Shown here one piece after another: positions 2,642-21,894 of a stretch of DNA of 44,719 bases (its first letter is position 1; each line of letters begins with the position of its first letter). Position numbers and translations under genes: made by a program. The stretch lies in IMG/VR virus record IMGVR_UViG_3300023223_000867, positions 1-44,719 of that record; one strand, given 5' to 3'. The notes beneath the pieces were generated by a model. It ran no database searches. It was given only the letters and a program-made list of their open reading frames with translations, and was not told the DNA's origin. This DNA comes from a virus.

Positions 2642-2683
2642 ATCATATTCCTTATTGACAACACTGTCAACAATAATTATGCT
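2642..2683. promoter_or_regulatory. Bidirectional early promoter around one shared operator
   Basis: The operator ATTGACAACACTGTCAAC is at 2654-2671. Rightward, -35 TTGACA (2655-2660) and -10 TATGCT (2678-2683) are 17 bp apart and point at the 2714 gene. Leftward, TTGACA on the minus strand (2670-2665) and TATGAT (2647-2642) are also 17 bp apart and point at the 2603 gene. One inverted repeat therefore supplies both -35 boxes, so anything binding it would switch both replication arms together. Hexamers and spacings are read directly; promoter activity is inferred. Confidence 0.85.
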
Positions 2684-2713
2684 AGAAGCTCTTTTGATTA
2701 CTGAGTGTATCCC

Positions 2714-2908
2714 ATGTTTAAAGGAACTAGGAAAATTCAAGAACTAACCGTTAAGTATTTTAAAAACATTGATACTCATGGACAAGAGAAAGTTGATAAT
2801 TGTGTTAGGTTAGCTAACGCGACTAGATGGACTTATCAATATTATCTTAGTTTACCTGATGATCAATTTAACGCAGCTATGATGAAGTGTTTCCCAAATG
2901 AACACTGA
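2714..2908 (+). CDS. Small early protein, function unknown
   Basis: A 64-aa protein beginning MFKGTRKIQELTVKYF. I prefer ATG 2714 because a GAG ribosome-site element lies 7-9 bases before it; a GTG at 2705 would add three residues. It is the first gene of the rightward early transcript and overlaps the next ORF by 11 bases. It is basic at the N terminus, with no membrane segment and no recognisable domain. Confidence 0.55.
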   Translation: MFKGTRKIQELTVKYFKNIDTHGQEKVDNCVRLANATRWTYQYYLSLPDDQFNAAMMKCFPNEH

Positions 2909-3071
2909 TAAAATAAACCAACACATAATTACTGTGCTTAGTCAATTGTCGTTAAACACTGTACTCGATGAGGATAATGATTTAATCGTTGAGCTGCTTT
3001 TAGGCGATCAAGTTATTAGTAACTGTTGTATTGGTTCTGAAGAAATTAAACAAATGATGAACACGCCTTAA
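2898..3071 (+). CDS. Small early protein, function unknown
   Basis: A 57-aa ORF (MNTDKINQHIITVLSQ...) sitting exactly between its neighbours: it overlaps the gene before by 11 bases, and its TAA overlaps the helicase ATG as TAATG. This tight coupling in both directions is the main support for it being real. Mostly helical, acidic in the middle (DEDNDL), with a Cys pair; no recognisable domain. Confidence 0.6.
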   Translation: MNTDKINQHIITVLSQLSLNTVLDEDNDLIVELLLGDQVISNCCIGSEEIKQMMNTP

Positions 3072-4702
3072 TGCAACTCAGAGATTATCAAGCAGCGACA
3101 GAATTTGAAATAAACAAAGCCTGGGAAGCTGTCACTAATGTATTAGCTGTCTTGCCTTGCGGTGGCGGTAAAACAGTTGTTTTTGCCAAAATTCTCAAAG
3201 ATCATAATGGCGCTGCTTGCGCTATTGCTCATCGTCAAGAATTAGTCAGTCAGATCAGTGTGGCGCTGGCTAAATTCGGTGTGAGTCATCGCATCATTGC
3301 GCCAAAAGCTTTAATTCACGATATTGTTCAACTACATGTTGAGGAAGTGGGGCGAAGTTTTTATAATCCCTCAGCCAAAGTTGCGGTAGCGGGTGTTGAT
3401 ACGCTGAACAGGCGCGCTGATACCATGCGTCAATGGCTCAATAGTGTCACGCTTTGGGTAATTGATGAAGCGCATCATGTGCTAATAGATAATAAATGGG
3501 GTAACGCTTGCAATTTATTTCCGAATGCTAAAGGTTTGGGGGTTACAGCTACACCTAATCGTGCCGATGGTGCCGGACTAGGTCGTCATGCTGATGGCTT
3601 ATTTGATACCATGATCGAAGGTTCGACAATGCGCGAACTGATTAATCAATCGTATTTAACTGATTATCGAATATTTGCGCCACCTTCTGATCTCGATATG
3701 GAAGGCGTTAAAACCACAGCACTCGGTGAATTCTCACCCAAAGAAACCAAGAAACGAATTGAGCGATCACACATTCTCGGTGATGTCGTTAAACACTATT
3801 TGCGGATCGCGCCTGATAAATTAGGGATCACTTTCGCCGCTGATGTGGAAAATGCCACACTGATCGCTGCACGATTCAATGATACTGGTGTACCAGCTGC
3901 AGTCGTTACCGCTAAAACGCCGCTCAGAGAACGAACCGCAATATTAAAACGATTTAAAAACCGTGACTTATTACAACTGGTTAATGTTGATTTATTTGGT
4001 GAAGGGTTTGATCTGCCAGCAATAGAAGTGGTTAGTTTTGCCAGGCCGACGATGAGTTATTCGCTTTATGTTCAGCAGTTTGGTCGAGCGCTCAGGTTGA
4101 TGAATGGGAAACATTGGGCAATCATCATTGATCATGTGGGTAATATTAAACGGCACGGTTTACCTGATAAATTACAAACCTGGACGCTTGATCGCCGCGA
4201 ACGTTCCAGCCGTAAAAAACACGATCCTGATCTTATTCCTCTCAAAACCTGTAAGGCTTGCACAGGGTTATATGAAGCTGTATATAAAATTTGCCCGTAT
4301 TGCGGTGAACTCGATGTGCCAGCAGGCCGATCATCACCTAAGCAAGTTGATGGTGATTTGTTTGAATTAGATGCCGCCACCTTGGCAGCGATGCGTGGCG
4401 AAATATTAGCCATTAGTAATGATTTAGATGGTACGAAACTGAAAGGTGATGCGCTTCAACGATTTGCGCAACTCAAACGTCACGCTGTTAAACAAGAAGC
4501 GCAGACGACACTCAGATCGGCGATCAGGCTGCTCGGTGGTTACCATATCAACCAGGGTATTAACCAATCAGAGAGCTGGAAACGTTTTTATTTTCGGTTT
4601 GGTGTTGATGTCATGAGTGCTCAAGCATTACCTACACGCGAAGCTAATGAACTACAAGAACGGATCATTGAGCACTTGACAGCTTGCGGTGTGGTTTGTT
4701 AA
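3071..4702 (+). CDS. Superfamily 2 DEAH-type helicase with C-terminal zinc ribbon
   Basis: A 543-aa helicase of the SSL2/RecG-like phage type that would unwind or translocate on DNA using ATP. Motifs in order: Q-motif-like QLRDYQ (residues 2-7), Walker A PCGGGKT (29-35), DEAH (132-135), motif III TATPNR (159-164) and arginine-finger motif VI QFGRALR (336-342). A four-cysteine zinc ribbon follows (C394, C397, C408, C411), then a helical C-terminal tail. It is the main product of the rightward early operon and is followed by a terminator. A 24-residue piece at 186-208 recurs in a separate small gene at 5688. The exact role (replication, recombination or transcription-linked) cannot be told. Confidence 0.9.
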   Translation: MQLRDYQAATEFEINKAWEAVTNVLAVLPCGGGKTVVFAKILKDHNGAACAIAHRQELVSQISVALAKFGVSHRIIAPKALIHDIVQLHVEEVGRSFYNPSAKVAVAGVDTLNRRADTMRQWLNSVTLWVIDEAHHVLIDNKWGNACNLFPNAKGLGVTATPNRADGAGLGRHADGLFDTMIEGSTMRELINQSYLTDYRIFAPPSDLDMEGVKTTALGEFSPKETKKRIERSHILGDVVKHYLRIAPDKLGITFAADVENATLIAARFNDTGVPAAVVTAKTPLRERTAILKRFKNRDLLQLVNVDLFGEGFDLPAIEVVSFARPTMSYSLYVQQFGRALRLMNGKHWAIIIDHVGNIKRHGLPDKLQTWTLDRRERSSRKKHDPDLIPLKTCKACTGLYEAVYKICPYCGELDVPAGRSSPKQVDGDLFELDAATLAAMRGEILAISNDLDGTKLKGDALQRFAQLKRHAVKQEAQTTLRSAIRLLGGYHINQGINQSESWKRFYFRFGVDVMSAQALPTREANELQERIIEHLTACGVVC

Positions 4703-4737
4703 TGTAATTGTGTCAGATGGAGTGAATTTCCCCCGAG

Positions 4738-4760
4738 AACCCTTGAAAGAGGGTTTTTTA
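4738..4760 (+). terminator. Rho-independent terminator after the helicase gene
   Basis: Stem AACCCT (4738-4743) pairs with AGGGTT (4750-4755) around a six-base loop and runs into a T tract. It sits 36 bases after the helicase stop and just before the next promoter, separating two transcription units. Confidence 0.8.
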
Positions 4761-4770
4761 TTGTCTGTCT

Positions 4771-4800
4771 GTTGACAGCTTCGTCAATAAGGCTCATAAT
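4771..4800 (+). promoter_or_regulatory. Operator-embedded sigma70-type promoter
   Basis: Operator GTTGACAGCTTCGTCAAT at 4771-4788 contains -35 TTGACA (4772-4777); -10 CATAAT is at 4795-4800 after exactly 17 bp. The downstream leader (GCTCAATTAA, then AACAGGTGA) recurs at 16.7 kb and on the minus strand near 21.75 kb. It drives the small membrane-protein genes from 4832. Confidence 0.85.
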
Positions 4801-4831
4801 GACTGCTCAATTAACCAACAGGTGAAATAAA

Positions 4832-5014
4832 ATGATGAAATACAGAATCGCAGCGACAGCATGTTTAATGTTGCAAATAGTTCTAATTATGTTTAGTGTC
4901 CAAGTTATTAATGCTGAGAATGTAACAGAAGATACGAAGTTATTTCATTTCGGACTTATAATTCTCAATGTTGTTTTTGGTGGGGTTAATATAAAAACAA
5001 TTTTTTCGGATTAA
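4832..5014 (+). CDS. Small two-segment membrane protein
   Basis: A 60-aa protein preceded by AGGTGA. Residues about 7-27 form a hydrophobic, signal-like or membrane segment ending in NAEN, and residues about 38-52 form a second hydrophobic stretch. It is the first gene behind an operator-type promoter with the conserved leader, like the lone membrane-protein gene at 21530 on the other strand. This suggests an envelope-acting accessory (moron-type) gene, for example in superinfection exclusion; that role is only inference. Confidence 0.6.
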   Translation: MMKYRIAATACLMLQIVLIMFSVQVINAENVTEDTKLFHFGLIILNVVFGGVNIKTIFSD

Positions 5015-5035
5015 ATAATCAATGAGGGATCTAAA

Positions 5036-5320
5036 ATGAAAGATTTTTTAAACGGTATCATCAAAGCCGATGCTTTTCAATGGTTGGGGTTTTCAATCTT
5101 CTGTTTATTTTCCAGCGCTGTGGTCATTTTATTTATATCTTTATCTTCAGATCATAAAATAAAATGCTATTACATGAAATCTGATTCAAGTAATTCTGTT
5201 GTGTCGTATAAAGTCATGGGTCATGTTGATTGGGGTGGAGATGTTACTGTATTTATCGGTCATCATCCCACTGATTCAAAGGCAATACTGTCTGATTTAA
5301 AACAATGTGCGAGTAAATAA
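5036..5320 (+). CDS. Single-pass membrane protein, function unknown
   Basis: A 94-aa protein with one clear membrane segment at about residues 15-37 (WLGFSIFCLFSSAVVILFI) and a polar C-terminal domain with two cysteines. GAGGGA precedes the start by about 7 bases. It lies 21 bases after the previous small membrane protein in the same transcript. No family recognised. Confidence 0.6.
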   Translation: MKDFLNGIIKADAFQWLGFSIFCLFSSAVVILFISLSSDHKIKCYYMKSDSSNSVVSYKVMGHVDWGGDVTVFIGHHPTDSKAILSDLKQCASK

Positions 5321-5322
5321 TC

Positions 5323-5691
5323 ATGGATATGTTATCAACCTTGTTTATAATCAGCGTCACATTTTCAGTGTTATTCGTCATTGTGATGGCAACTAGAACC
5401 AATGATTTACCTTATTTAACCAGGCGATTAACGGTTGAGTTAATGTTTTCTCGTCGTCTAGCGGATGAGATCCAGGTTATCTGTGATTCATTCAGGCAAG
5501 GTGATGATGAATTTGGAGATATTGCGATTATTCAATGCGCTAGGCAGGTTTTTGTGAGTGGTAATGAGATTAACCAAATATTTGAAAGTTTCCCTGGTAT
5601 GATTAAACATCCTGCATCGTTTAGAGCTAGATGCAGCAATCAAAGAGTAGCATTTAACGAATTGCTTAAAGCTATGGGGGTGGGAAGATGA
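5323..5691 (+). CDS. Membrane-anchored small protein, function unknown
   Basis: A 122-aa protein with an N-terminal hydrophobic anchor (about residues 4-23) and a soluble helical domain. It starts 2 bases after the preceding stop and overlaps the next ORF by 4 bases, so translation is probably coupled. No recognisable domain; the three adjacent membrane proteins from 4832 to 5691 may act together at the inner membrane. Confidence 0.6.
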   Translation: MDMLSTLFIISVTFSVLFVIVMATRTNDLPYLTRRLTVELMFSRRLADEIQVICDSFRQGDDEFGDIAIIQCARQVFVSGNEINQIFESFPGMIKHPASFRARCSNQRVAFNELLKAMGVGR

Positions 5692-5948
5692 TGACGCCAG
5701 ACGAAGCTGCTTTCACTAAACCTCAAACAAATTTTAATCTAACAGTGCGTGAATTGATAGATCAAGGGTATCTTACTGATTATAAAATATTAGCAAGACC
5801 ACCATCTAATTTGAAATTAAAACTGGTTTCAAACAGCATGAGAGATCACGCGGTGCTAAGCGATAAAATCAGTATACCTGGTCAAGATCGCAGCGTTGAA
5901 TCAGTGTGGATAATATGGCTCGTTGGTTTGGGGGCTTGGTGGTTATGA
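5688..5948 (+). CDS. Small protein carrying a helicase-derived segment
   Basis: An 86-aa ORF whose residues 19-42 (TVRELIDQGYLTDYKILA...) closely match residues 186-208 of the phage's own SF2 helicase (TMRELINQSYLTDYRIFA...). The underlying DNA is clearly related but diverged. The rest does not match and ends in a hydrophobic, Trp-rich tail (WIIWLVGLGAWWL). It lacks all ATPase motifs, so it is not a helicase; it is either a decayed copy of a related helicase gene or a short protein that kept this segment. It has a GGGAAG ribosome site and is coupled at both ends, which argues that it is expressed. Confidence 0.5.
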   Translation: MMTPDEAAFTKPQTNFNLTVRELIDQGYLTDYKILARPPSNLKLKLVSNSMRDHAVLSDKISIPGQDRSVESVWIIWLVGLGAWWL

Positions 5949-6334
5949 GCACACCACTCACTAAGTGCAGTCCTGTCTGGTTATCAAAACAAGATGAGAA
6001 TGATCCAAACTTGAGAAAAAATTATCGCCGATCTGTTCGTTATTACAAAAAGCTTTATGCCGCATGGCCAGATTGGTGTGCTAATCATTCTGATTTTAAG
6101 AAAATTTATCATGAAGCAAAACGACTTAGAAAAATGGGAAAAGATGTTCATGTTGATCACATTGTGCCAATTTGTTCACCGATAGTGTGTGGTCTCCATG
6201 TCCCGTGGAATTTAGAAATCATTCCAGCAAAAACAAATATGTCCAAATCTAACAACATGTGGCCTGGACATCCGTTTGAAAATCACGAATTATTTAAAAT
6301 GACTCGTGAACCCCATCAGTTACGGTTGTTGTGA
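5945..6334 (+). CDS. HNH endonuclease
   Basis: A 129-aa HNH-fold nuclease. The ATG at 5945 overlaps the previous stop as ATGA, which I prefer over an in-frame ATG 39 bases upstream. The core reads HVDHIVPI near residues 68-75, then LEIIPAKTNMSKSNN, matching the phage HNH layout D-H...N...N with a metal-binding His. Such genes are either free-standing homing nucleases or DNA-processing enzymes. No intron or intein is visible nearby. Confidence 0.8.
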   Translation: MSTPLTKCSPVWLSKQDENDPNLRKNYRRSVRYYKKLYAAWPDWCANHSDFKKIYHEAKRLRKMGKDVHVDHIVPICSPIVCGLHVPWNLEIIPAKTNMSKSNNMWPGHPFENHELFKMTREPHQLRLL

Positions 6335-6627: not shown

Positions 6628-6639
6628 GGAGACAATCAA

Positions 6640-6951
6640 ATGCAAATAGCTGATGTTATTATTAAAAAATGCTTACCTAATGTGGTTGGCGTTCATTTCG
6701 ATAAGTGGACTGTGACGTTTAATCATGTGTATAGAAGTCAATCGATTAGCTTAAAAATCCACAACAGAATCGATTTCATGTCGTATAAAGATGTTCGTTT
6801 TTGTGTTGAGTTTTTAATCGATCCTACTAACGGATCATTGAGTTTCAGAAAAGTCAATGTTGTTTGTAAATGTATTGATTACACGTTGCATAGGCATCTG
6901 TTAGCTAATCAAATTAAATCTCAATTGATAGGGGTAGATGACTGTGAATAA
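6640..6951 (+). CDS. Hypothetical protein
   Basis: A 103-aa ORF with a good GAGGAG ribosome site 10 bases before the ATG. It alternates short beta-like stretches and has no cysteine motif or membrane segment. It overlaps the VRR-NUC gene by 14 bases. I do not recognise a family. Confidence 0.55.
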   Translation: MQIADVIIKKCLPNVVGVHFDKWTVTFNHVYRSQSISLKIHNRIDFMSYKDVRFCVEFLIDPTNGSLSFRKVNVVCKCIDYTLHRHLLANQIKSQLIGVDDCE

Positions 6952-7417
6952 TTTCATGCTTTGGGCGATGCGCTGGCATGTTCCAGATGCTGCAATCAAA
7001 GAGATATTTAACTTGTACGGTGTTGATGTTATGCCTACTAGCGACATGTCTGAGGCGGCGATTACTCAACGTGTAAGGCTTAAAGCTAGTCAGAAGGGCG
7101 CTAGGTTATGGCGCAATAATGTTGGTGCGTATGACCCCGAAAACCCGCCAACTTCGTGGACTCGATGGGGTTTGTGTAATGAATCAGCCGCACAAAATAA
7201 AAAATTAAAATCTAGCGACCTGATTGGTATAACGCCAATTGTTATCGCACAGCAGCATGTAGGGCAAACATTCGGTATTTTTACAGCATATGAGCTGAAA
7301 GCAGGCGGTTGGAAATATTCAGGCAATCAACGCGAACAAGCCCAATTTAGTTTTATTAACCTGGTGAGTGCAATGGGCGGCATAGCGAAATTTATTAATA
7401 GTGAGGATCAGTTGTGA
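6938..7417 (+). CDS. VRR-NUC domain nuclease
   Basis: A 159-aa protein whose C-terminal two thirds match the phage VRR-NUC layout: GARLWRNNVGAYD near residue 53, GLCNES, KSSDLIGITP with the metal-binding Asp near residue 91, then ELKAGGWK with the E-x-K pair near residues 120-122, and a following Gln helix. VRR-NUC is a PD-(D/E)XK variant that in FAN1 cuts branched DNA; in phages it probably resolves replication or recombination intermediates. The N-terminal about 45 residues are family-variable. Confidence 0.85.
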   Translation: MTVNNFMLWAMRWHVPDAAIKEIFNLYGVDVMPTSDMSEAAITQRVRLKASQKGARLWRNNVGAYDPENPPTSWTRWGLCNESAAQNKKLKSSDLIGITPIVIAQQHVGQTFGIFTAYELKAGGWKYSGNQREQAQFSFINLVSAMGGIAKFINSEDQL

Positions 7418-7728
7418 ATAGAATAATATTAAAACACGAAAATACAATGTTACAGCACAGAATACCCATAAAAGACCGAAACAAAGGGATTTGTGTTTTT
7501 AAAATCAGCGGTACATGTGAAGTAACAGACAGAGTTGTTGATTGTCTATTTACAGGCACTAGAGAACAAGCCCAAAGTGTACGACTTATCACTAAAGAAC
7601 AATGTTTAAAAGAAGGAAATTTGAGAAGTCGCCGTGTGTTTTCAAGTAAAAACGGTAAAATTAAATATCATCCTTATAATACGTCAACCGCAGAATCACC
7701 TGAACAAAAATTATACAATGACACCTGA
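7414..7728 (+). CDS. Hypothetical protein
   Basis: A 104-aa basic protein starting at GTG 7414, which overlaps the preceding TGA and has GAGGA 9 bases upstream. No membrane segment or known motif. It overlaps the next start by 11 bases. Confidence 0.5.
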   Translation: MNRIILKHENTMLQHRIPIKDRNKGICVFKISGTCEVTDRVVDCLFTGTREQAQSVRLITKEQCLKEGNLRSRRVFSSKNGKIKYHPYNTSTAESPEQKLYNDT

Positions 7729-7933
7729 ACACCGTACAAAATATTTCGTTGAGCACGACGGTGTCAAGTCTGTTTGTTGGTTTATGGGTGGTCTGTTTAT
7801 TTTTGATAATTATAGAACTGAAACAGATGTTAAAATAATACAGTGTTTGGGTAATGAACGTCAATATTTTGGCACATTGGATAAAGCGCGTAAACTTCAA
7901 ACAGTCATTGACAAGATCGTCAACAAGTCTTAA
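7718..7933 (+). CDS. Small hypothetical protein with an operator in its 3' end
   Basis: A 71-aa ORF beginning MTPEHRTKYFVEH. I choose ATG 7718 because it overlaps the previous stop; the longer reading from 7634 would run through the neighbouring gene. Its last codons contain a copy of the phage operator, so the coding sequence and the promoter for the tRNA unit overlap. Confidence 0.5.
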   Translation: MTPEHRTKYFVEHDGVKSVCWFMGGLFIFDNYRTETDVKIIQCLGNERQYFGTLDKARKLQTVIDKIVNKS

Positions 7934-7944: not shown

Positions 7945-8013
7945 GCGTGAGTGATGAATGTCGAGGAAATTGATTCTTCATCTATGTGGGTTCGAGTCCC
8001 ACCTCATGCGCCA
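7945..8013 (+). tRNA. tRNA-like element lacking a normal D-arm (possible pseudo-tRNA)
   Basis: The 7-bp acceptor GCGTGAG (7945-7951) pairs with CTCATGC (8003-8009), followed by G and an encoded CCA. The T-arm GTGGG-TTCGAGT-CCCAC (7986-8002) is perfect. Between them are only 34 bases instead of about 41. These can form one hairpin, GAGGA/TCTTC around AATTGAT (putative TTG anticodon but no U33), or alternatively GATGAA/TTCATC. No D-stem fits. It is either a decayed tRNA or a tRNA mimic; amino-acid identity is not assigned. Confidence 0.55.
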
Positions 8014-8020
8014 TTTTAAT

Positions 8021-8097
<77 letters not shown>

Positions 8098-8116
8098 AAT
8101 AACACCGAGGCAAATT

Positions 8117-8416
8117 ATGTCAACAAAAAGAATGAAACCCGATGATCGACGTGATGAGATCCTTGCTGCTGCTTTGCGTGTTGCGATGATACACGGATAC
8201 GCTGCCTTTACTCGCATCCAAGTTGCTAATGAAGCTAATTGCGCCGAATCCCTGGTGTCTAAGTATTTTGGCACAATGGCGAAGTTCAGACGTAACGTTA
8301 TGCGCGCTGCTATTAGAAATAATAATAAAGTCATCATCATGCAAGGTGTTTTAATTAAGGACAAACATGCCTTAAAAGCAGCAACACCATCAATGTTAAA
8401 ATTATTACCGATCTAA
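8117..8416 (+). CDS. Minimal TetR-type HTH DNA-binding protein
   Basis: A 99-aa protein with a GAGG ribosome site. Residues about 10-60 read as a TetR N-terminal domain: an RRDEILAAALRVAMIHGYAAF helix, then a helix-turn-helix with VANEANCAESLVSKYFG, the last matching the Y-x-x-F box of the recognition region. Normal TetR proteins have about 200 residues with a ligand-binding C-terminal domain; here only about 35 basic residues follow. TetR-type dimers bind palindromes, so this is the best candidate for the protein reading the repeated TTGAC-N6-GTCAA operator, one copy of which lies upstream. That link is inference. Confidence 0.75.
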   Translation: MSTKRMKPDDRRDEILAAALRVAMIHGYAAFTRIQVANEANCAESLVSKYFGTMAKFRRNVMRAAIRNNNKVIIMQGVLIKDKHALKAATPSMLKLLPI

Positions 8417-8418: not shown

Positions 8419-10839
8419 ATGCTTGAGTTACCCGCATGTTTTTATGCGCTCGCCCAGTACAACCAGTTTGTCATCTGGCAGGCGATCCCGAGCAAAACAA
8501 AACCTGGTAAATTTGAAAAAATAACCATTAACCCTGCCACGTTATTTCCTCACAACGCTCATGATCCCTCTATCTGGTATGACGCGGCTAGCGCTATCGC
8601 AATCGCTGCGAACCTTGGTGATACGTTCAGTATCGGGTTTGTGTTTACTGCTAATGATCCATTCTGGTTTTTTGATCTCGACAACTGCACGACACCAGAT
8701 AATCAATGGACGCCTGAAACCTTAGCTTTTATTGCCCATTTTACCGGGGCAGCTGTTGAGGTATCAATTAGTGGTAAAGGTCTGCACATCATCGGCTCAG
8801 GTGCAGCATCATTACCTGAGCATGGGACTAATAACAAACATATCGGCCATCAATTTTATAGTCATAAACGATTTGTAGCATTAACCGGCAATCAGACCAG
8901 CGGCGATGCAGCATTTGACGCCTCTCACTTATTGCCTGATTTTGCTGCTTATTATTTCCCACCGACAACCGCCACCATATCAGCAGAATGGACAACCGAA
9001 CCTGATCCCAAATCCAGGCCTCTAAAAACAGACAAAGCGCTCATTAGTAAAATGTTGTCATCAAACAGTGCTCATACTGTTTTTGGAAAAAAAATCAGCG
9101 TCGCTGATCTATGGAATGCCAACCCTGAAACACTTGCAAGTGTTTATCCGCCATTTAACGAAACTGACCCGTTTGATCGTTCATCAGCCGACCAAGCATT
9201 GTGCAATCATCTGGCGTTTTGGACGGGTAAAGATTGCGACAGAATTGAGCGATTAATGAGTCAATCAGGTTTAATGAGAGATAAATGGGATAAACGTCCG
9301 AAATATCGAACAGCTACGATCCTAAAAGCTATCAGCGGTTGTCAGGATGTTTACGGTTCACAAAAAGCGGAACAGGAAGAAGCTCAGACAGTCTGGCAAC
9401 CCGACCAACAGATCACTAATACCGCTATTACCGCCAACGGTGGATCGCAAATCGTCACTTATGAAGAACGCCCGCAATATTTCGCTGGTCATTTTTTCCT
9501 GACCCGGTCAAGCAAGGTGTTTTGTCCTGATGGTGTGATGCGCAATCAAACCGAATATAACGCGATGTACAGCATTGCTGAGTTTGCTGAGCCATTCGGA
9601 GGTAAGCCTGTCACCGAGGCATGGAAAGCTTATGTGACTGCCACAGACGTGACTCGCATGTCGGTTTATGACACTGCGTATCGGCCTGAGTATGGATTCG
9701 GTGTGACGTTTACTGATTGTGAGCGAGAATATGTCAACGAATATATTAACCGCGACGGCAAGCGTGTTGTAGGCGACGCATCACCGTTCCTCAACCATGT
9801 GAAAATCATGTTACCTAATGGTCGCGATGCTGAAATATTACTGTCATGGATGGCTGCGCTGGTTCAGTATCCTGGTGTTAAATTTAAATGGTCACCGTTT
9901 CTACAAGGCGCTGAAGGTAATGGTAAAAGTCTGATCACTCGATTATTAAGATACTGTATTGGAGTTGACCATTTTGAAGATGTTGACCCTGAAGAATTCT
10001 GTAGCAGTGGTGGAAAATTTAACGCTTATGTTAAAAATAAGCGATTAGCGGCATTAGAAGAAATAAAAACTGGCTCACGAAACCAAGCTGAAGCAGCGCT
10101 TAAACGATTTATCGGTAACGATTATCAATCGGTGCGAGCCATGCAGACTGATCAGATCACGCTACGTACTTGTATTAATTGGATCCTCAATAGCAACCAC
10201 AAAGACGCTATACACGTCGGTGATGTTACACGTCGATTTGCTATATTATTTTGTGCTCAACAGGAGCTTGACGATCTCATTCAATATGATATGCAGCGAG
10301 GCGGTAAATATTTTCGTGAATTGTTTAAATGGTTGGATGGTGGCGGTTGGGGGATCGCGGCTAACTGGCTTGATACTTATGCGATCCCTGTGGAATTTAA
10401 TCCAGCCGGTGATGCGGATAAAGCGCCTCAAACAACCAGTTTCTTAGAAGCAATTAGCGAATCAAAGAGCGCACCACACCAGGCGGTTGCTGAACTGCTG
10501 AGCAGTGGTAGGCCTGGCACGCTGAATAGTTGGGTCAGTATTCAAGCGATCAGAAGCATATTACAGTCTGATTATGGGATCAGGTCGCCGAGCGGCAAAA
10601 TGTTGGCAAAATATCTCAAAGCTGAAGGTTATATTAAACATCCTGCATTAATCAACCAAGGTAGACTCACAAGGACTGTCATGCAAGAAGGTGGGCAGCG
10701 TTCAGTGATTTATGTCAAGTCAGGTAGCGTGCAAGCAGGGCTCACTGACGCCGCTGATGTAACAGAAAAATATCTCAATGCCCAGGGTTATCTTGGATTG
10801 CCTGCTGCGCAACAATCAACAGGAGTACAACCATTATGA
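8419..10839 (+). CDS. Primase-helicase (AEP-type primase/polymerase domain plus DUF5906 ATPase)
   Basis: An 806-aa replication protein. The N-terminal domain has archaeo-eukaryotic primase signatures: acidic FFDLDNC (D86, D88) and S-x-SGKGLHIIG (116-125, His123). A segment at about 247-305 (SSADQALCNHLAFWTGKDCDRIERLM...) matches the NrS-1 polymerase-type helicase-binding domain. The C-terminal half is a helicase of the virulence-associated E/DUF5906 class with Walker A GAEGNGKS near residue 497 and a downstream EEIKTGSRN segment. It would prime and unwind at the origin. It overlaps the next gene by 4 bases. Domains are recognised by motif; the polymerising ability of the N-terminal domain is inferred. 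Confidence 0.88.
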   Translation: MLELPACFYALAQYNQFVIWQAIPSKTKPGKFEKITINPATLFPHNAHDPSIWYDAASAIAIAANLGDTFSIGFVFTANDPFWFFDLDNCTTPDNQWTPETLAFIAHFTGAAVEVSISGKGLHIIGSGAASLPEHGTNNKHIGHQFYSHKRFVALTGNQTSGDAAFDASHLLPDFAAYYFPPTTATISAEWTTEPDPKSRPLKTDKALISKMLSSNSAHTVFGKKISVADLWNANPETLASVYPPFNETDPFDRSSADQALCNHLAFWTGKDCDRIERLMSQSGLMRDKWDKRPKYRTATILKAISGCQDVYGSQKAEQEEAQTVWQPDQQITNTAITANGGSQIVTYEERPQYFAGHFFLTRSSKVFCPDGVMRNQTEYNAMYSIAEFAEPFGGKPVTEAWKAYVTATDVTRMSVYDTAYRPEYGFGVTFTDCEREYVNEYINRDGKRVVGDASPFLNHVKIMLPNGRDAEILLSWMAALVQYPGVKFKWSPFLQGAEGNGKSLITRLLRYCIGVDHFEDVDPEEFCSSGGKFNAYVKNKRLAALEEIKTGSRNQAEAALKRFIGNDYQSVRAMQTDQITLRTCINWILNSNHKDAIHVGDVTRRFAILFCAQQELDDLIQYDMQRGGKYFRELFKWLDGGGWGIAANWLDTYAIPVEFNPAGDADKAPQTTSFLEAISESKSAPHQAVAELLSSGRPGTLNSWVSIQAIRSILQSDYGIRSPSGKMLAKYLKAEGYIKHPALINQGRLTRTVMQEGGQRSVIYVKSGSVQAGLTDAADVTEKYLNAQGYLGLPAAQQSTGVQPL

Positions 10840-11024
10840 CCATTTTAATAATTATTTATATACTTAGCATCTTGATCTGTTTTTCGACTTGGTTTATTGA
10901 AATACGTGATCGATTAGATTTTTTTGATTTTATTATGATATTCGTTCCTGTTGTTAATACGGTTGTGGCTTATATGTTAATGCGATTCTTTATTTCAGAT
11001 TATATCGATAGGAGCGAACCATGA
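10836..11024 (+). CDS. Small two-pass membrane protein
   Basis: A 62-aa protein with AGGAG 10 bases before its ATG. Two hydrophobic segments (about residues 2-20 and 30-50) are separated by a charged EIRDRLD turn, giving a hairpin topology. It lies between the primase-helicase and the DUF4406 gene, overlapping both by 4 bases. It could be a membrane anchor or an antiholin-like protein, but an early-region position makes lysis unlikely. Confidence 0.55.
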   Translation: MTILIIIYILSILICFSTWFIEIRDRLDFFDFIMIFVPVVNTVVAYMLMRFFISDYIDRSEP

Positions 11025-11368
11025 ACAGTAAAATAAAAATGGTTTACGTGGCTTGTGCTCTGACGGCGGATACTGAATTTGAACGAAATCTTAATATACA
11101 GGCAGCAAGACACGTTGGGTATAAACTGTCTAAAGCAGGGTTTTATCCTGTTATGCCAACAGTTAACACTGAGGGATTTGAGAATGCTAATACTATTGAT
11201 TTTTGGTATGAAGCCACATTAGAGTTGTTGAGGCGGTGTGATATTGTTTATGTGGTTAACGGTTCACATGATTCAACAGGTGTTGAGGATGAACTTGCTG
11301 AAGCTAGAAAAATCAGAATACCTTTTTATGATGACATCAAACATCTGATTACGAGGGAAAGTTATTGA
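11021..11368 (+). CDS. DUF4406 / nucleoside 2-deoxyribosyltransferase-like protein
   Basis: A 115-aa Rossmann-like protein of the DUF4406 type. Signatures are an N-terminal VYVACALTAD strand and loop, a middle RCDIVYVVNGSHDSTGVEDELAEA segment near residues 68-90 with the S-x-GV-x-x-E nucleotide-binding loop, and a final short strand. Relatives cleave or transfer the glycosidic bond of deoxynucleosides, so a nucleotide-salvage role is plausible; the family is often catalytically uncharacterised. An operator and promoter overlap its stop codon. Confidence 0.75.
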   Translation: MNSKIKMVYVACALTADTEFERNLNIQAARHVGYKLSKAGFYPVMPTVNTEGFENANTIDFWYEATLELLRRCDIVYVVNGSHDSTGVEDELAEARKIRIPFYDDIKHLITRESY

Positions 11369-11393
11369 CGAAACTGTCAATAAAGAATATCAT
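11364..11393 (+). promoter_or_regulatory. Operator-embedded promoter for the small-gene cluster
   Basis: Operator ATTGACGAAACTGTCAAT at 11364-11381 overlaps the stop of the DUF4406 gene. -35 TTGACG (11365-11370) and -10 TATCAT (11388-11393) are 17 bp apart; a CATAAT follows 3 bases later. The leader TTAACAGG before the 11417 gene resembles that of the other operator promoters. Confidence 0.75.
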
Positions 11394-16649: not shown

Positions 16650-16680
16650 GTTGACAGCATCGTCAATAGAAGAGTACACT
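16650..16680 (+). promoter_or_regulatory. Operator-embedded promoter inside the late region
   Basis: Operator GTTGACAGCATCGTCAAT at 16650-16667, -35 TTGACA (16651-16656) and -10 TACACT (16675-16680) with 18 bp. The leader (GCTCAATTAA, TTAACAGGT) is nearly the same as at 4.8 kb and on the minus strand at 21.75 kb. It lies just downstream of the terminase gene and drives the 16715 gene. Confidence 0.8.
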
Positions 16681-16714
16681 AACAGCTCAATTAATTAACA
16701 GGTAATATGGGAAA

Positions 16715-17164
16715 ATGAAAATACCATTAGGAACAATAGTAAAAGATCTCGTAACAGGTTTAATTGGAGTTGCAGAAAATCGAGCTGAATTTATGTATGG
16801 ATGTGATCGATATCTGGTACAACCACGAATCGGAGGAGATGGGAAAATACCTGAAAGTCATATGATTGATGAAACTCAACTTGTTTTATTAGAGCACTGT
16901 GATCCTGTTATGCAACCGCCTTTAGAGCCTGTTAAAATCTTTGAAATGGGGCAAGAAGTAATAGATCCAATAAAAGAAGCTAAAGGTGTTATTACTGGTC
17001 GCGCTGTCTATTTGAATGGATGCGCTAGGGTGATGATATCGCCTAAACAATCATCTGACAAAGATTTATCACCATGGTGGGTTGATGAAGGGTTGCCTGT
17101 AGCCACAAAGAAAAAACATTCCGCGCCATTTATATGCAGCGGAGTTAGGCGTAAAGATAGGTGA
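16715..17164 (+). CDS. Two-repeat SH3-like small protein
   Basis: A 149-aa protein made of two related halves: residues about 5-60 (GTIVKDLVTGLIGVAENRAEFMYGC...) and about 72-125 (GQEVIDPIKEAKGVITGRAVYLNGC...), each with a GxxVxDxxxxxxGV start and a GC-x-R-(Y/V) strand. Single-domain relatives occur in many phages near head genes, function unknown. It has its own operator promoter and the conserved leader, so it behaves like an inserted accessory gene between terminase and portal. Confidence 0.6.
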   Translation: MKIPLGTIVKDLVTGLIGVAENRAEFMYGCDRYLVQPRIGGDGKIPESHMIDETQLVLLEHCDPVMQPPLEPVKIFEMGQEVIDPIKEAKGVITGRAVYLNGCARVMISPKQSSDKDLSPWWVDEGLPVATKKKHSAPFICSGVRRKDR

Positions 17165-17304: not shown

Positions 17305-18678
17305 GTGAAAAAATCCAATGTCGTAGAGATCACCAAGAACGATACCCTCATAGGTAAAATCATCAATGGTTTTCAATTCACCCTGCGACGTATGCAAGGC
17401 GGCTTAGGTTTTGGTATCAGTCCGGACGGTAAGAGAGACTATAATAAAATCTTTGGTTATGGTACTAACCTGCGCTACAGCGATTATTTCGCTATGTACG
17501 AGCGTCACGATTTCGGACATGTGATCGTTGATAAAATTGCTAAAGCTTGTTGGAATGAATTACCTAAAATAATGAGCGGTGAGACTCAGATCCTCAAGGA
17601 CGAAATGGATCAGCTTAAAAAGATGGGGTTTTTTAAAGCTTTGCAACGTGCTGATCGACTCAATAGAATAGGTAATTTCAGTGTATTATTGATCGGCATG
17701 CCTGATGGATTAGATCTTGATAAGCCGCTAGGCTCAGCTACTGATATACAAGGCATGTATTTTAATCCTTATAATTTTAATGGTATTGAGATCCTTAAAC
17801 AAGAGGATGACCCACTATCGCAGCGTTTTGGACTACCTGAACTTTATCAATTACAAACAACAAACCATGGTGAAAAAGAGAAAGATTCTCATGTTGTGTC
17901 AGTCGTGGTGCATCATTCCAGGATCATTCACCTGGCAGAGGGAGCGCTTGATTCTGCTGTTGAAGGCACCAGCGCATTAAAAGCCGTGTGGAATTCATTA
18001 ATTAACATTACTAAAACGACTGGTGGTAGTGCTGAAGCTTATTTCCGTAATGCCAGACAGCAATTAGCGCTTGAGGCTGACAAAGACGCAAGACTTAAAA
18101 AAGGTAGTGAGGAACTTGCTGCATTAAAAGAAAACGTCGAAGATCATATGAATGGTTGGGATCCAGTTCTCAGGCTGCAGAACATGAAAGCCAATAACCT
18201 CAATATCCAAATGATTAGCCCCCGTGAGACTTTTGACATTAACGCTGAATCAATCAGTGGTGAAACAGGTATACCGATCAGAATACTCACCGGTAAAGGT
18301 GGTGGTCAAACGACAGGTACAGAAGATCGGGCAAGCTGGAACGCTTTAATCTCAGATAGACGTACTGACGAATGCGATGACTATCTGATGCAAGGCTTAC
18401 AGATTATGAGTAATGGTGGGATGTTTAAATTGCCTGATAATGCTATTGTCGAATGGCCACCGCAAGCATCGACGAATGAAAAAGAAGCGGCTGAAGTAAT
18501 CAAAAACAAAGCAGAAGCATTTAAATTTGTGATTGAAGCGCTCAGCATGCCTGTCGGCGATGAGGCTGATGCTACTGTAGTACTTGAAACAATAGGCTTT
18601 GAAGGTATTGAGATTGATACCAGTGATATTGAGCCAGAACCAACGGAGCCAGAAGATGACAGCGAAGAGAATGAGTAA
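17305..18678 (+). CDS. Portal protein (DUF1073 type)
   Basis: A 457-aa protein starting at GTG 17305, the portal of the head vertex through which DNA enters and leaves. The DUF1073-type layout is visible: the SDYFAMYERHDFGHVIVDKIAKACW segment near residues 50-75, an RADRLNRIGNFSVLLIGM strand near 114, an IIHLAEG segment and an NIQMISPRETFDINAE segment, then SGETGIPIRILTGKGGGQTTGTEDR near 315-340, characteristic of the wing/stem part of this group. The C terminus is acidic. Position between terminase and head genes agrees. The 140-base gap before it contains no gene that I can support. Confidence 0.85.
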   Translation: MKKSNVVEITKNDTLIGKIINGFQFTLRRMQGGLGFGISPDGKRDYNKIFGYGTNLRYSDYFAMYERHDFGHVIVDKIAKACWNELPKIMSGETQILKDEMDQLKKMGFFKALQRADRLNRIGNFSVLLIGMPDGLDLDKPLGSATDIQGMYFNPYNFNGIEILKQEDDPLSQRFGLPELYQLQTTNHGEKEKDSHVVSVVVHHSRIIHLAEGALDSAVEGTSALKAVWNSLINITKTTGGSAEAYFRNARQQLALEADKDARLKKGSEELAALKENVEDHMNGWDPVLRLQNMKANNLNIQMISPRETFDINAESISGETGIPIRILTGKGGGQTTGTEDRASWNALISDRRTDECDDYLMQGLQIMSNGGMFKLPDNAIVEWPPQASTNEKEAAEVIKNKAEAFKFVIEALSMPVGDEADATVVLETIGFEGIEIDTSDIEPEPTEPEDDSEENE

Positions 18679-19030
18679 AGAAGATCTAGTTGCTAATACG
18701 ATTACATTTATTCAAGGCAATGAGATTGATGAGCCTAATCCTAATTTCCCGAATGGTTATGTGGACATCATAGCGTTAGATGGATTGGAAGGTAATCCAG
18801 TCATTCCTGGTGCTGGTACTTTTACAGTATCGGTAAAAACAGATATTGATGGCGGTTTTAAAACTGTCGGAACAATTAGCGCTGCTGAGGCTGCGGGTTC
18901 AGCAGGTAGTGATGGTGACGCTGTTGGGTTAACATTCACTGAATTACCGCTGGAAGTTAAAATCATACCAGCGGGCGTTACTACAGCGACCCATTATCGC
19001 GCAATTTTTAAACAAACGAGTTCTCAATGA
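18671..19030 (+). CDS. Structural-region protein, paralogue of the next gene
   Basis: A 119-aa protein starting MSKEDLVANTITFIQGN (ATG 18671, overlapping the portal stop). Its sequence aligns along its whole length with the first about 125 residues of the next gene: K-E-x-L-x-x-x-T-I-x-F-x-Q-N, then D-I-I-x-L-D-G, T-D-x-x-G-G-F-K, and Y-R-x-x-x-K-Q-(T/S)-S-x-Q. It is beta-rich and probably a virion component (head fibre or decoration type), inferred from position. Confidence 0.6.
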   Translation: MSKEDLVANTITFIQGNEIDEPNPNFPNGYVDIIALDGLEGNPVIPGAGTFTVSVKTDIDGGFKTVGTISAAEAAGSAGSDGDAVGLTFTELPLEVKIIPAGVTTATHYRAIFKQTSSQ

Positions 19031-19031
19031 T

Positions 19032-20195
19032 ATGACAATGAAACGGATCAACAAGGAAGCCTTGATCAATTCAACTATCTTTTTCACCCAAAATGATGAA
19101 ACCATTGATCGAGTCGAGCACTCTTTCGCTATGAACCATATAGACATTATTAGCCTGGATGGTTCTGGTGATCCTGTTACACCAACAACCGGTTCATTTG
19201 ATATTTTTGTACGTACTGATGTCAATGGTGGATTTAAACGGATCACAGAGCGCTCTAATTATCCTGCTAATCTTACAGGTGGATCAAAATTATCTGATGG
19301 GGTGGCGGTCGATGCTAAATTTGTCGGTTTTCCACTTGAATTTAAAATAGTACCTAGCATTGATATCAATATTGCTGTTTCATACCGTGTGAATATTAAA
19401 CAATCCAGCGTGCAGTTAGGTCGAGTACCGATAGAAACATCCGCTAGAGGCGATGTAGCGATCCCTGTATTTGTTCAAGATCAAACCACTCAAAGCCTGG
19501 ATTTATTGTTTACTCAGGATGTTGATACCTCTGAATTAGACGTTGACACTGTTAAAGATAGTCGGTTTTTCGATGTAGTCGCAGGAGAAGGTGTAAAATT
19601 TAGTATTAATGATATTATCGAGATAGGGAGCGGATCTCAATTCATCCAGGCAAGAGTCAAAGCAATTATTGTTGATAGCATTGAAATATTCAGTCCAATG
19701 AATAGTGTTTATCCAGCAGGTACAACTATTGTTATTAAAAATGATAACTTAAGAGTAGATGGATCAACAATCCCTCAAATATTCGAAATATCACCAGAAA
19801 TCAGTCAAATAGGTGATATAACTCGGTTAATTCTGCGAATGGAAGGTACTGCACCAATGGACAGTGGGACATTTGGCACTTTACCCGCAGTGACGAACGG
19901 TGTAGTTTTAAGACGTAAAAAACCAGATGGTGATTTCAATAATCTTTTGAATTTTAAAACTAATGGTGATTTTGTAGCGCATTGCTTTGACCATAATTTT
20001 TTGCCTAATAATGGTCAGGGTATTAGACTGCTTGTTGCTCGTTTAAGTTATGGAGGACAAGAGAGACACGGGGTTGTTCAAAGGCTCGACGGAACGTTAT
20101 TAGAAGAATTGCAGGTTGTGATCCAGGATGACCTGACAGGTGCCACGTTTACTAATTTCACACTCTTCGCTCAAGGACATGAGGTGCAACAATAA
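19032..20195 (+). CDS. Two-domain structural-region protein
   Basis: A 387-aa protein. Residues about 4-128 repeat the preceding 119-aa protein; the remaining about 255 residues are a separate beta-rich domain containing VVAGEGVKFSINDIIEIGSGSQF. The gene pair probably arose by duplication of the N-terminal domain. Position between portal and the Mu F-like gene suggests a head-associated or virion surface protein. No family recognised. Confidence 0.6.
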   Translation: MTMKRINKEALINSTIFFTQNDETIDRVEHSFAMNHIDIISLDGSGDPVTPTTGSFDIFVRTDVNGGFKRITERSNYPANLTGGSKLSDGVAVDAKFVGFPLEFKIVPSIDINIAVSYRVNIKQSSVQLGRVPIETSARGDVAIPVFVQDQTTQSLDLLFTQDVDTSELDVDTVKDSRFFDVVAGEGVKFSINDIIEIGSGSQFIQARVKAIIVDSIEIFSPMNSVYPAGTTIVIKNDNLRVDGSTIPQIFEISPEISQIGDITRLILRMEGTAPMDSGTFGTLPAVTNGVVLRRKKPDGDFNNLLNFKTNGDFVAHCFDHNFLPNNGQGIRLLVARLSYGGQERHGVVQRLDGTLLEELQVVIQDDLTGATFTNFTLFAQGHEVQQ

Positions 20196-20479
20196 TGACA
20201 TTACAAGATGCAGCAGCAGCAAGGACAGCGGCCGACTTAAGAAATCCTATCGATTATAATTCTGTAACAATGGGTGAATTAAACACCTTGATCAGTACGT
20301 CTGATGGTGAGGTCGTATTGACTTTAACCACAGAAGGTGAAAACGGATCGTTAGAAATTGTACAGACAGATAGCAGTAAGATTGATTTGTCTGATTTTAT
20401 AGATGCTGTGAAATCAAAAGATTACGATGTTAGCCATGTTCTGCTACCGAATCAAGTAACTATATTTGTGAGATTTTAA
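20195..20479 (+). CDS. Hypothetical head-region protein
   Basis: A 94-aa protein whose ATG overlaps the preceding stop by one base (TAATG). It has an alpha-helical start (LQDAAAARTAADLRN) and a beta-rich remainder. No motif recognised; role inferred as virion assembly from context only. Confidence 0.5.
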   Translation: MTLQDAAAARTAADLRNPIDYNSVTMGELNTLISTSDGEVVLTLTTEGENGSLEIVQTDSSKIDLSDFIDAVKSKDYDVSHVLLPNQVTIFVRF

Positions 20480-20481
20480 TA

Positions 20482-21525
20482 ATGGCAATCAGCAACAACC
20501 CCACAAAAACACGCGGTATTGAGAAAGCGTGGCGACGAGAAATCAATAAGCGATGGGCAACCTTCACGCGGGATACGATCAGGGAACTTCGTGCTGTTGG
20601 CGGGTTCACGGTTAATAATTCACCTGGTTACAATCATATAAACGTAAGCGATAAACTTAAACAAATCAATGCTTTGCATGCTACCCCTGTTAAAAACATG
20701 CAGGAAGTGAATGAAATAGATCTGAAAATTAGGTCAATTATGGATGAATGCGAGACTATTATGGTCAATGCATTTGAAGCCGATCCCAGTCAGTTGAGAG
20801 CCTACATTGCTTTTTTTCAAGAGAAAATTGACGAGTTATTATTAGGCACTTGGCAAGAAAAATATCAACGCAGAGCTTATAACCTTGCGATCACGCGGGC
20901 AAACGCTGCGTTGCGCCGTCAAGGTGCCAGATTGAAGATCACAACAGCTGATCGCGCCCTTGCTGCCAGGATTCAAACATTTACCGCCACCGCATCCCTG
21001 GGTATTACAGCAATTGATTTAGCTGCTTTTCCGCTCCATCAGGAAACATTAGAATTTTTATTCACTCGCTCGTTTGAAGCACTCGAAGGATTAACAGTTG
21101 ATTTAGCACGCCAGGTTCGGATTATTTTATTTAATGGTGTTGAACAAGGATTAGGTATTGCGGAATTAACCAGACAGATAAGAGATCGCATAAATGTTAG
21201 CCGTTCAAGAGCTAGATTAATCGCTCAAACTGAGATAATACAAGCTTTTCAACGAGGCACAATCAACCAATCGCAACTAGCCAGCGAGTTTATTGGCGAA
21301 GAGGTCAAGTTGCGATGGGACACCAGGAGAGATAGCAGAGTCAGACCCCTCCATGTGGAGTTTCATGGGCAAATTATGACTCAGGCTGAGGCACGTAAAA
21401 AAATCAATATTAGTCCGTTTCGATGCCGTTGTGGATTATCACCTATCATCATGGAAGCAGACACGCCTGAATTGCGATCACAGCTTGCAGAAGAACGCAG
21501 ACAGTTAATTGCGCTTGCTGCATAA
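20482..21525 (+). CDS. Mu F / SPP1 gp7-like minor head protein
   Basis: A 347-aa minor head morphogenesis protein. The C-terminal third has the family signature: ARLIAQTEIIQAFQRGTI, then LRWDTRRDSRVRPLHVEFHGQ near residues 275-295 with the conserved R-D-x-R-V-R-x-x-H, and FRCRCGLSP near 315-323 with the paired cysteines. Family members sit on the portal inside the head. The N-terminal part is helical. It is the last gene of the portal-side head block; a convergent gene follows 4 bases later. Confidence 0.85.
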   Translation: MAISNNPTKTRGIEKAWRREINKRWATFTRDTIRELRAVGGFTVNNSPGYNHINVSDKLKQINALHATPVKNMQEVNEIDLKIRSIMDECETIMVNAFEADPSQLRAYIAFFQEKIDELLLGTWQEKYQRRAYNLAITRANAALRRQGARLKITTADRALAARIQTFTATASLGITAIDLAAFPLHQETLEFLFTRSFEALEGLTVDLARQVRIILFNGVEQGLGIAELTRQIRDRINVSRSRARLIAQTEIIQAFQRGTINQSQLASEFIGEEVKLRWDTRRDSRVRPLHVEFHGQIMTQAEARKKINISPFRCRCGLSPIIMEADTPELRSQLAEERRQLIALAA

Positions 21526-21529
21526 TTCC

Positions 21530-21739
21530 TTATTCGTCACCAAACCCGCGAATATTTTCCAACGGTAACCATAAATCATTATGCTTAACCATACATCCTG
21601 AAAAATACCCATATTTATGTTCTTTAAAAGAAATTGATTTTTGATCACACCTCTCTTGATTGATCAAATAAAAACCTATGAGTCCACCAACGATCACCAA
21701 TATTATGGCCAATATCGCAATAATTGTTTCTTTGTCCAT
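21530..21739 (-). CDS. Lone antisense membrane protein with its own promoter
   Basis: A 69-aa protein on the strand opposite to all surrounding late genes. Residues about 5-25 form one strong membrane segment (IIAILAIILVIVGGLIGFYL), followed by a polar 43-residue tail with two cysteines. GGTGATG-type ribosome site and an operator promoter lie directly upstream, with the leader shared with the 4832 and 16715 genes. This cassette (private promoter, single gene, reversed strand) is typical of an accessory moron; function unknown. Confidence 0.7.
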   Translation of the reverse strand: MDKETIIAILAIILVIVGGLIGFYLINQERCDQKSISFKEHKYGYFSGCMVKHNDLWLPLENIRGFGDE

Positions 21740-21772
21740 CCTGCATCACCTTGTTAATTTAATTGAGCGGTC

Positions 21773-21802
21773 ATTATGCTCCTTATTGACGAAGCTGTCA
21801 AT
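21773..21802 (-). promoter_or_regulatory. Leftward operator-embedded promoter for the antisense membrane gene
   Basis: On the minus strand: -35 TTGACA (21801-21796) inside the operator at 21785-21802, 17-bp spacer, -10 CATAAT (21778-21773). The core is identical to that at 4771-4800 including the spacer start, and the downstream GCTCAATTAA and AACAAGGTGA leader match too. Confidence 0.85.
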
Positions 21803-21827
21803 AATAGATATCGAATATAAATTCCTT

Positions 21828-21845
21828 ATTGACAGCTTCGTCAAT
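21828..21845. promoter_or_regulatory. Second operator copy, exact inverse of the one 26 bp away
   Basis: ATTGACAGCTTCGTCAAT is the exact reverse complement of the operator at 21785-21802. The pair forms a large inverted repeat between the antisense gene and the capsid genes. Neither strand has a clearly good -10 at 17 bp, so it may act mainly as a regulator-binding site. Confidence 0.75.
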
Positions 21846-21865
21846 TAAATCAATCAGTTAGAGCA

Positions 21866-21894
21866 TTGACGTGTGACTCAGCATAAGCTACTAT
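21866..21894 (+). promoter_or_regulatory. Rightward promoter for the capsid module
   Basis: -35 TTGACG (21866-21871), 17-bp spacer, -10 TACTAT (21889-21894), leading to the 21916 start with AGGAG 8 bases upstream. It lacks the inverted repeat but lies 20 bases past an operator copy, so it may restart transcription after the antisense gene. Confidence 0.6.

Follow-up and report, generated by a model that had tools for sequence, protein, structure and literature searches.

In phage P1, the dispersed operators of a single repressor, C1, are asymmetric, and this repressor is unrelated to the protein considered here. Regulators of the TetR family usually bind palindromic operators and control their own genes. 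For L5-type mycobacteriophages 20-30 dispersed repressor sites are described, some of which are operators within promoters (PMC6550527), and the small DNA-binding protein Gp5.7 of phage T7 is reported to act in lytic growth as a repressor of those promoters in the phage genome that the host polymerase uses (PMC5569994). The tetR genes of phages CP-T1, 138 and phiPLPE have been called co-opted cellular regulators tied to osmotic stress (PMC3391216); the words 'promoter', 'operator' and 'palindrom' do not occur in the main text of that paper. Here, the IMG/VR virus record IMGVR_UViG_3300023223_000867 was examined over its whole length of 44,719 bases, referred to as the window. The palindrome TGAC-N6-GTCA, dispersed in this window, is likely to be the operator of a phage-encoded TetR-like master regulator (8117-8416), a probable repressor of the early units. 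In related phages these sites recur together with a tetR-like gene, with the same exact spacing and the same tie to promoters made of -35 and -10 boxes.

The motif TTGACNNNNNNGTCAA occurs seven times in the window, at 2655, 4772, 7908, 11365, 16651, 21786 and 21829. In shuffled versions of the window its mean count is 0.08 and its largest 2, and TTGAC-N6-GTCAA ranks first in significance among the window's 5-bp dyads (7 observed, 0.08 expected). The initial annotation of this sequence had reported the seven copies and had accepted that an equal abundance in shuffled DNA would speak against them; they are present, and none of 100 shuffles reaches 7. Its sites were right, while the core of each copy starts one base higher than was given, since the 18-bp form had been counted. 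That form, RTTGACRNNNNYGTCAAY, fits all seven copies and has no further plus-strand match in the window. An eighth, near-perfect copy, ATGACATCTTCGTCAA at 767-782 (18-bp form 766-783), had been overlooked. Loose matches with up to 2 mismatches are at chance level (33 against 26, with 13 of 100 shuffles reaching 33). The operators and the proposed regulator are as follows.

766-783, minus strand: eighth operator, one mismatch to TTGACN6GTCAA, promoter TTGACG-17-TATGCT, inside the 3' end of the exonuclease gene
2654-2671, no single strand: operator of the divergent early region, -10 at 17 bp both ways (plus TATGCT, minus TATGAT)
4771-4788, plus strand: operator/promoter TTGACA-17-CATAAT, early cluster from 4832
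7907-7924, plus strand: operator/promoter TTGACA-17-TAATAT, followed by tRNA-Asp and the tetR-like and primase genes
8117-8416, plus strand: TetR-type helix-turn-helix protein of 99 amino acids, proposed binder (PF00440, phrog_8723)
11364-11381, plus strand: operator/promoter TTGACG-17-TATCAT, small-gene cluster from 11417
16650-16667, plus strand: operator/promoter TTGACA-18-TACACT, accessory gene 16715-17164 between the terminase and portal genes
21785-21802, minus strand: operator/promoter TTGACA-17-CATAAT, minus-strand gene 21530-21739 inside the late region
21828-21845, no single strand: operator copy 43 bp from the 21785 copy, no convincing -10

All of the -10 hexamers claimed at spacings of 17 or 18 bp were found. 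On the plus strand they follow five copies, 2655 (TATGCT, 17 bp), 4772 (CATAAT, 17), 7908 (TAATAT, 17), 11365 (TATCAT, 17) and 16651 (TACACT, 18), and on the minus strand they belong to 2655 (TATGAT, 17) and 21786 (CATAAT, 17). When the whole window was scanned for sigma-70-like consensus promoters by a simple count, all three matches of 11/12 were operator promoters, as were 7 of the 23 matches scoring at least 10. The motif search and promoter scoring that had been proposed as a check thus added one copy and placed operators among the top promoters, with the copy at 21829 falling short. As had also been claimed, the sites stand at the early units and at two accessory genes. They lie at the gene starting at 668, toward which the promoter of the eighth copy reads from about 100 bp ahead of the start, both units at 2655 (leftward exonuclease, rightward helicase), the cluster from 4832, the tRNA-tetR-primase unit, the cluster from 11417, and, within the late region, the genes 16715-17164 and 21530-21739. 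As a separate observation, the promoters at 4772-4840 and 16651-16715 (plus strand) and at 21740-21801 (minus strand) have, besides the operator, much of their first 30 transcribed bases in common (GCTCAATTAA..AACA.GGT), as though copies of one promoter-operator-leader cassette had been placed ahead of other genes.

The candidate binder was scanned as the open reading frame 7958-8416, which matched PF00440 at 24.1 bits (cut-off 24) and phrog_8723 at 95.9 bits; 8117 was chosen as the start of the gene because the listed start, 7958, precedes the tRNA. When 13 relatives were combined into a profile, it matched 191 distinct PDB sequences, and the 60 shown are named transcription regulators, mostly of the TetR family. 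A C-terminal ligand-binding domain of the usual size was not found in this 99-residue protein: the PDB matches shown end at about profile position 85 of 101, and a conserved short tail (..IAQGL..D.HA.KA..) stands where the ligand domain would. In tblastn searches the window protein found relatives in 17 phage records, and its KsaM-C1 relative found them in 103, some of them duplicates, including Klebsiella Jedunaviruses, Pectobacterium phage PEAT2, Edwardsiella phages, Vibrio phage CP-T1 and Acinetobacter phage Scuro. A single-protein search of IMG/VR with the window's TetR-like protein or its terminase gave no confirmed relatives. The window proteins matched in operator-bearing phages are the exonuclease, one unknown protein, the helicase, the nuclease, the TetR-like protein, the primase and the polymerase; the HNH protein, small terminase, portal and some others are matched in single or few such phages. 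Among all of these, the TetR-like protein has the only recognised transcription-regulator domain, and it is probably the regulator. In the records examined such genes are annotated only as 'TetR regulator', 'hypothetical' and similar.

Sites of the form TGAC-Nk-GTCA were counted for k = 0-14 in 22 hand-picked genomes with a TetR relative: the window, 13 of the 17 and 7 of the 103 tblastn records (LAPP1 included), and phiPLPE, taken from the published paper. Nine show a spike at N6, namely the window (8 sites), Scuro (5), KsaM-C1 (14), JD001 (14), PEAT2 (17), LAPP1 (16), Geezett (17, over 50,000 of its 50,707 bases), CP-T1 (9) and PVN06 (12), with at most 6 sites at any other spacing from N0 to N14. 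In the same nine phages, TAnnnT follows at a spacer of 17 in 57 of the 224 arms; the next most frequent spacer is 19 (19 arms), and spacers of 16 and 18 give 3 and 12. Many sites are common by descent in KsaM-C1, JD001, PEAT2, LAPP1 and Geezett, and the -10 peak stays when four of these are left out (28 of 96 arms at 17).

The sites also recur at the same genes. The divergent exonuclease/helicase region bears one in all nine phages, and the region upstream of tetR in eight, CP-T1 excepted; in the window, this site lies 209 bp upstream of tetR with a tRNA in between. A site at or beside the 3' end of the exonuclease gene is likewise seen in Scuro (28351), CP-T1 (4613), PVN06 (32240), JD001 (35804), KsaM-C1 (11429), Geezett (37996) and L032 (5247). 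The last is the nearest relative found (TetR 67% identical), and its 6 N6 sites occupy, among other places, the exonuclease end, the divergent region and the stretch ahead of the nuclease. Fifteen sites are present in Escherichia phage ZCEC13, one of them ending 44 bp before tetR. The window shares the early module of the compared Jedunavirus-type phages, in which a TetR-like gene lies between helicase/nuclease and primase and the promoters carry TGACN6GTCA. In four Jedunavirus-like phages (L021:22967, L022:22373, L023:35150, L024:203), a TGACNNNNNNGTCA site was additionally noted just upstream of the terminase small subunit region; the flanks were scored in three of the four, and no good -10 adjoins the site there.

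A second set of relatives was fetched from IMG/VR through neighbouring genes, the endonuclease (best 80 of 213 matches) or the helicase (best 80 of 185), a choice of bait meant to avoid selecting phages by operator or regulator. Of 155 distinct loci, 144 carry a TetR-like gene, and clustering at 90% identity removed 43 of these to leave 101 representatives; the 11 loci without the gene were counted apart. Three loci are probably JD001, KpV52 and MSW-3, so that this set is not wholly independent. N6 sites number 292 in the 101 loci, and every other spacing gives 15-30. In the 120 bp preceding the TetR match there are 36 N6 sites, spread over 33 loci, while any other spacing gives 0-2, and 25 of the 36 sit 50-65 bp away. 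TAnnnT occurs at a spacer of 17 in 149 of 584 arms, followed by 39 arms at 12, with 15 at 16 and 25 at 18. Viewed from the promoter side, TTGAC[AG]-N17-TAnnnT is accompanied by GTCA at N6 in 137 of 275 cases in the 101 loci and by GTCA at any other offset in at most one; the same combination is found in 55/65 cases in the nine phages, 5/7 in the window and 3/43 in the 13 other phages. Chance in AT-rich DNA is ruled out by the shuffles (0.08) and by the palindrome's appearance in relatives of 48-53% G+C and in loci of up to 65%.

An apparent division of labour within the site emerges from 149 sites oriented by their -10, many of them being related by descent. On the -35 side TGAC is preceded by T in 147 of them, whereas GTCA is followed by A in 57 and by T in another 57. 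Being nearly fixed on the -35 side only, this outer T looks like a promoter requirement, with TGAC-N6-GTCA as the part that the regulator would need. At the sixth position of the -35, G (101 of 149) outnumbers A (37), departing from the TTGACA consensus, and the symmetrical C is present at the other arm in 113.

Different repeated motifs stand at tetR and in the divergent region of several of the 13 phages with no spike; in CKB-S1, TGCTAGATTAGCGCT occurs at 36488 and again at 40824, before tetR at 40857. These motifs rest on repeats shared by the divergent region and other places, most of them without a formal test, and by eye they lie between the -35 and -10 or over the -10. The recognition helices differ as well: in the phages with no spike most are of another type (PPA, APS, NSS), as opposed to xGxV or ESLV in operator phages. 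This pattern fits an operator and a protein that change jointly, although the numbers are small. A residue-operator comparison excluded loci shorter than 10 kb, near relatives at 85% identity and loci bearing exactly 2 sites. It covered 77 distinct proteins, 48 of them from loci that have 3 sites or more and 29 from loci that have one at most. Of the eight alignment columns with the strongest tie to operator presence, five fall in the helix-turn-helix region, and an arginine there is present in 48/48 proteins of operator loci and 20/29 of the others, an association suggestive of a link between protein and operator. Where representative loci had one N6 site at most, a search for dyads gave tandem repeats and unassigned dyads and established no replacement operator. 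In the divergent early regions of six related phages (L013, L014 and L016-L019), TTGAC and GTCAA were noted by eye about 30 bp apart, as two overlapping promoters facing each other. One of these, Pseudoalteromonas phage PY6 (L016:7107, 8014, 12382, 19992, 28188), carries five palindromes of similar form, GTAGCGC-N4-GCGCTAC, each between TGAC and GTCAA arms, possibly its own version of the operator.

On good hexamers with a 17-bp spacer, the dyad spans roughly -36 to -20 with its centre at about -27. An activator centred there would be unusual, and a protein over the -35 should exclude RNA polymerase; for these reasons repression is favoured. In the proposed scheme, host RNA polymerase would fire the strong early promoters at infection, and the TetR-like protein would be made from one of them and accumulate. 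It would then bind TGAC(R)N4(Y)GTCA over the -35, probably as a dimer, and the replication units, several accessory genes and, where tetR has a site, its own promoter would be shut off jointly. In timing this would amount to a shut-off of early genes with feedback during the lytic cycle, instead of or in addition to immunity. The binder, its dimeric state, its repressing action and this timing are inferred. The initial annotation had suggested that one protein covers the -35 through the palindrome and switches the early units jointly, and had advised looking for the same operator at the same genes of related phages. The arrangement does recur in many phages with the same early module, and the N6 spacing, the -10 peak at 17 bp and the shared genes point to such a joint switch. 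The candidate binder, which the initial annotation had not named, is itself encoded in the regulon.

Several observations weigh against this interpretation. Thirteen of the 22 TetR carriers have just 0-3 N6 sites (phiPLPE, whose relative is weak, has one and no excess), so the gene alone is insufficient, and only 50 of the 101 loci have at least 3 N6 sites with N6 as the commonest spacing. The 11 loci without a TetR match have 6 N6 sites in all as compared with 0-4 at other spacings. CP-T1 and L032 lack an operator directly upstream of tetR, and SppYZU01 and Psp6 have an xGxV-like helix with no N6 spike. The operator phages are not one clade in the TetR tree, which has few supported branches, and the residue-operator association is uncorrected for relatedness. 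Of six operator phages compared by tblastn, the window protein directly finds just Scuro and KsaM-C1, the rest being linked through KsaM-C1; its PF00440 (TetR_N) score is barely over the cut-off, and a single-sequence AlphaFold model of the monomer is poor (predicted local distance difference test score, pLDDT, 48). TAnnnT is absent at 17 or 18 bp on either side of 124/292 sites in the loci, 45/112 in the nine phages and 3/8 in the window, by a strict test that CATAAT fails. Finally, the copy at 21829 has a convincing -10 on neither side, and three copies touch mechanically listed open reading frames: 7908 (7634-7933), 11365 (the end of 11021-11368) and 21829 (21678-21848).

A different account would make the palindrome two back-to-back -35 boxes of two-way promoters, read by no protein. 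The site at 2655 looks just like this, each arm having a -10 at 17 bp and the genes diverging, but a TAnnnT on both sides is found at only 1/8 sites in the window, 2/112 in the nine phages and 6/292 in the IMG/VR loci, where 162 have one on one side. Because of this 6/292 count, two-way promoters alone fail to explain the dyad and were rejected; the fixed N6 and the preference for TGACG...CGTCA over TTGACA are likewise unexplained by RNA polymerase alone, which makes this account extremely improbable. That the palindrome is read by some other protein of host or phage, with the TetR-like gene a passenger of the module, is improbable to a lesser degree. The exonuclease-helicase-nuclease-primase-polymerase module is co-inherited and linkage alone would give the co-occurrence, 13 TetR carriers lack the palindrome, and the 11 TetR-less loci are not clearly free of it. 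However, the recorded hosts are diverse (Klebsiella, Escherichia, Edwardsiella, Vibrio, Acinetobacter), the site is frequent before tetR, mostly 50-65 bp away, and several of the carriers without the palindrome have another repeated motif at the same promoters, mostly with another helix type. As for the direction of control, some TetR-family proteins are described as activators and many sites are at promoters, yet an activator needed by the early promoters appears very unlikely. The site lies over the -35, a position on which an activator was set aside, the near-consensus hexamers are among the window's best and should fire unaided, and the other motifs of relatives were seen by eye between the -35 and -10 or over the -10.

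An immunity repressor that keeps a dormant, perhaps plasmid-like state would be compatible with the preferred explanation, repression by the TetR-like protein, and is nevertheless unlikely. The source of CP-T1, which has 9 sites, is recorded as an induced lysogen, and this phage is reported to be temperate while having no genes of the three known lysogeny mechanisms (PMC3391216); the dispersed L5 sites also serve immunity (PMC6550527). However, the authors of the CP-T1 report consider that their stock may be a virulent mutant minus its lysogeny cassette, and list phage 138, a tetR carrier, as lytic (PMC3391216). Jedunavirus HHU1, which carries the gene, is described as lytic with no lysogeny genes (PMC12518310), and none of the 30 window proteins scanned against PHROGs is named as an integrase or partition protein. 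A rather doubtful extension of this thought is that a large phage group, lytic Klebsiella and Escherichia phages included, has an immunity-type switch made of a TetR protein with no ligand domain, whose helix and all dispersed core-promoter operators change together. If true, this switch alone could hold dormant integrase-free lysogeny in phages like CP-T1, which would explain the temperate behaviour of CP-T1, and related phages would be mutually immune according to operator type.

The genes around the operators are listed below.

1-668, minus strand: 5' part of a gene that continues in frame over the record ends into the open reading frame 44314-44703
670-1827, minus strand: DUF2800 / exonuclease gene, leftward early unit
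1815-2603, minus strand: first gene of the leftward early unit (phrog_11133, unknown function)
3071-4702, plus strand: early DNA helicase gene (phrog_16)
6938-7417, plus strand: early endonuclease gene (phrog_93), bait for the second set of relatives
8021-8097, plus strand: tRNA-Asp (gtc), between the 7908 promoter and the tetR-like gene
8419-10839, plus strand: primase gene, downstream of the tetR-like gene

As the gene at 668 is in frame across the record ends, the genome looks circular. Both ends (1-668 and 44314-44719) fall within this one gene, in a tandem repeat encoding MAPVQQPG units, at which they probably close the circle. By tblastn the gene matches unnamed genes of PD0307 and CKB-S1; gene names at the equivalent place in PY6 and AeroV348 alone suggest that it may be SSB-like. 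Directly before tRNA-Asp there is a well-folding tRNA-like element at 7945-8010 (Rfam 25.5 against a cut-off of 29 bits; -25 kcal/mol, z -2.8), possibly a decayed tRNA. A megablast comparison of window positions 1-22000 with phages gave 61 bases of tRNA as its sole match.

If the interpretation holds, many related phages appear to switch their early genes jointly through one small DNA-binding protein. A gene so far annotated, in the records examined, as a lone regulator would gain a testable function and a set of targets, and early promoters would be predictable directly from sequence. The 103 records matched by the KsaM-C1 version include HHU1, described as a lytic therapy candidate (PMC12518310). 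The relatives would also form a natural series of one repressor type with differing operator sequences, and the system bears on the reported puzzle of CP-T1, temperate with no lysogeny genes (PMC3391216).

Among known systems, a close one is the L5/Bxb1 immunity repressor with its stoperators. As described for it, one phage protein has many dispersed sites, some of them in early promoters, site sequence and repressor specificity vary between relatives, and a conserved site lies near the repressor gene (PMC6550527). The claim of the initial annotation that no described phage regulon has this layout was therefore too wide, the C1 operators of phage P1 being a further precedent. Many candidate sites across the genome are found here as well, 8 in the window and 5-17 in eight relatives. 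The L5 sites are 13-14 bp long, have no dyad symmetry, are bound by a monomer, and lie mostly outside promoters, where they block elongation (PMC6550527). The present sites differ in being dyads with a -10 peak at 17 bp, largely located in promoters, with the -35 as one arm and a proposed TetR-type protein. T7 Gp5.7 is unlike the present protein in being winged-helix-like and in also contacting RNA polymerase, and the abstract of its report names no palindromic operator set (PMC5569994). The tetR genes of CP-T1 and 138 match the family of the window protein. With the TetR family it has in common the N-terminal helix-turn-helix (PF00440; PDB matches such as Mce3R), while its 99 residues are too few for the usual C-terminal ligand domain. 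Searches of open PubMed Central papers found none describing a TetR regulon of a phage in which the -35 forms an arm of the operator, and the words TetR and promoter do not occur in the accessible text of PMC11633184 and PMC11672853. Dispersed phage operators are thus already known from L5, and what appears to be new here is the TetR form, in which the -35 box serves as an arm of the operator.

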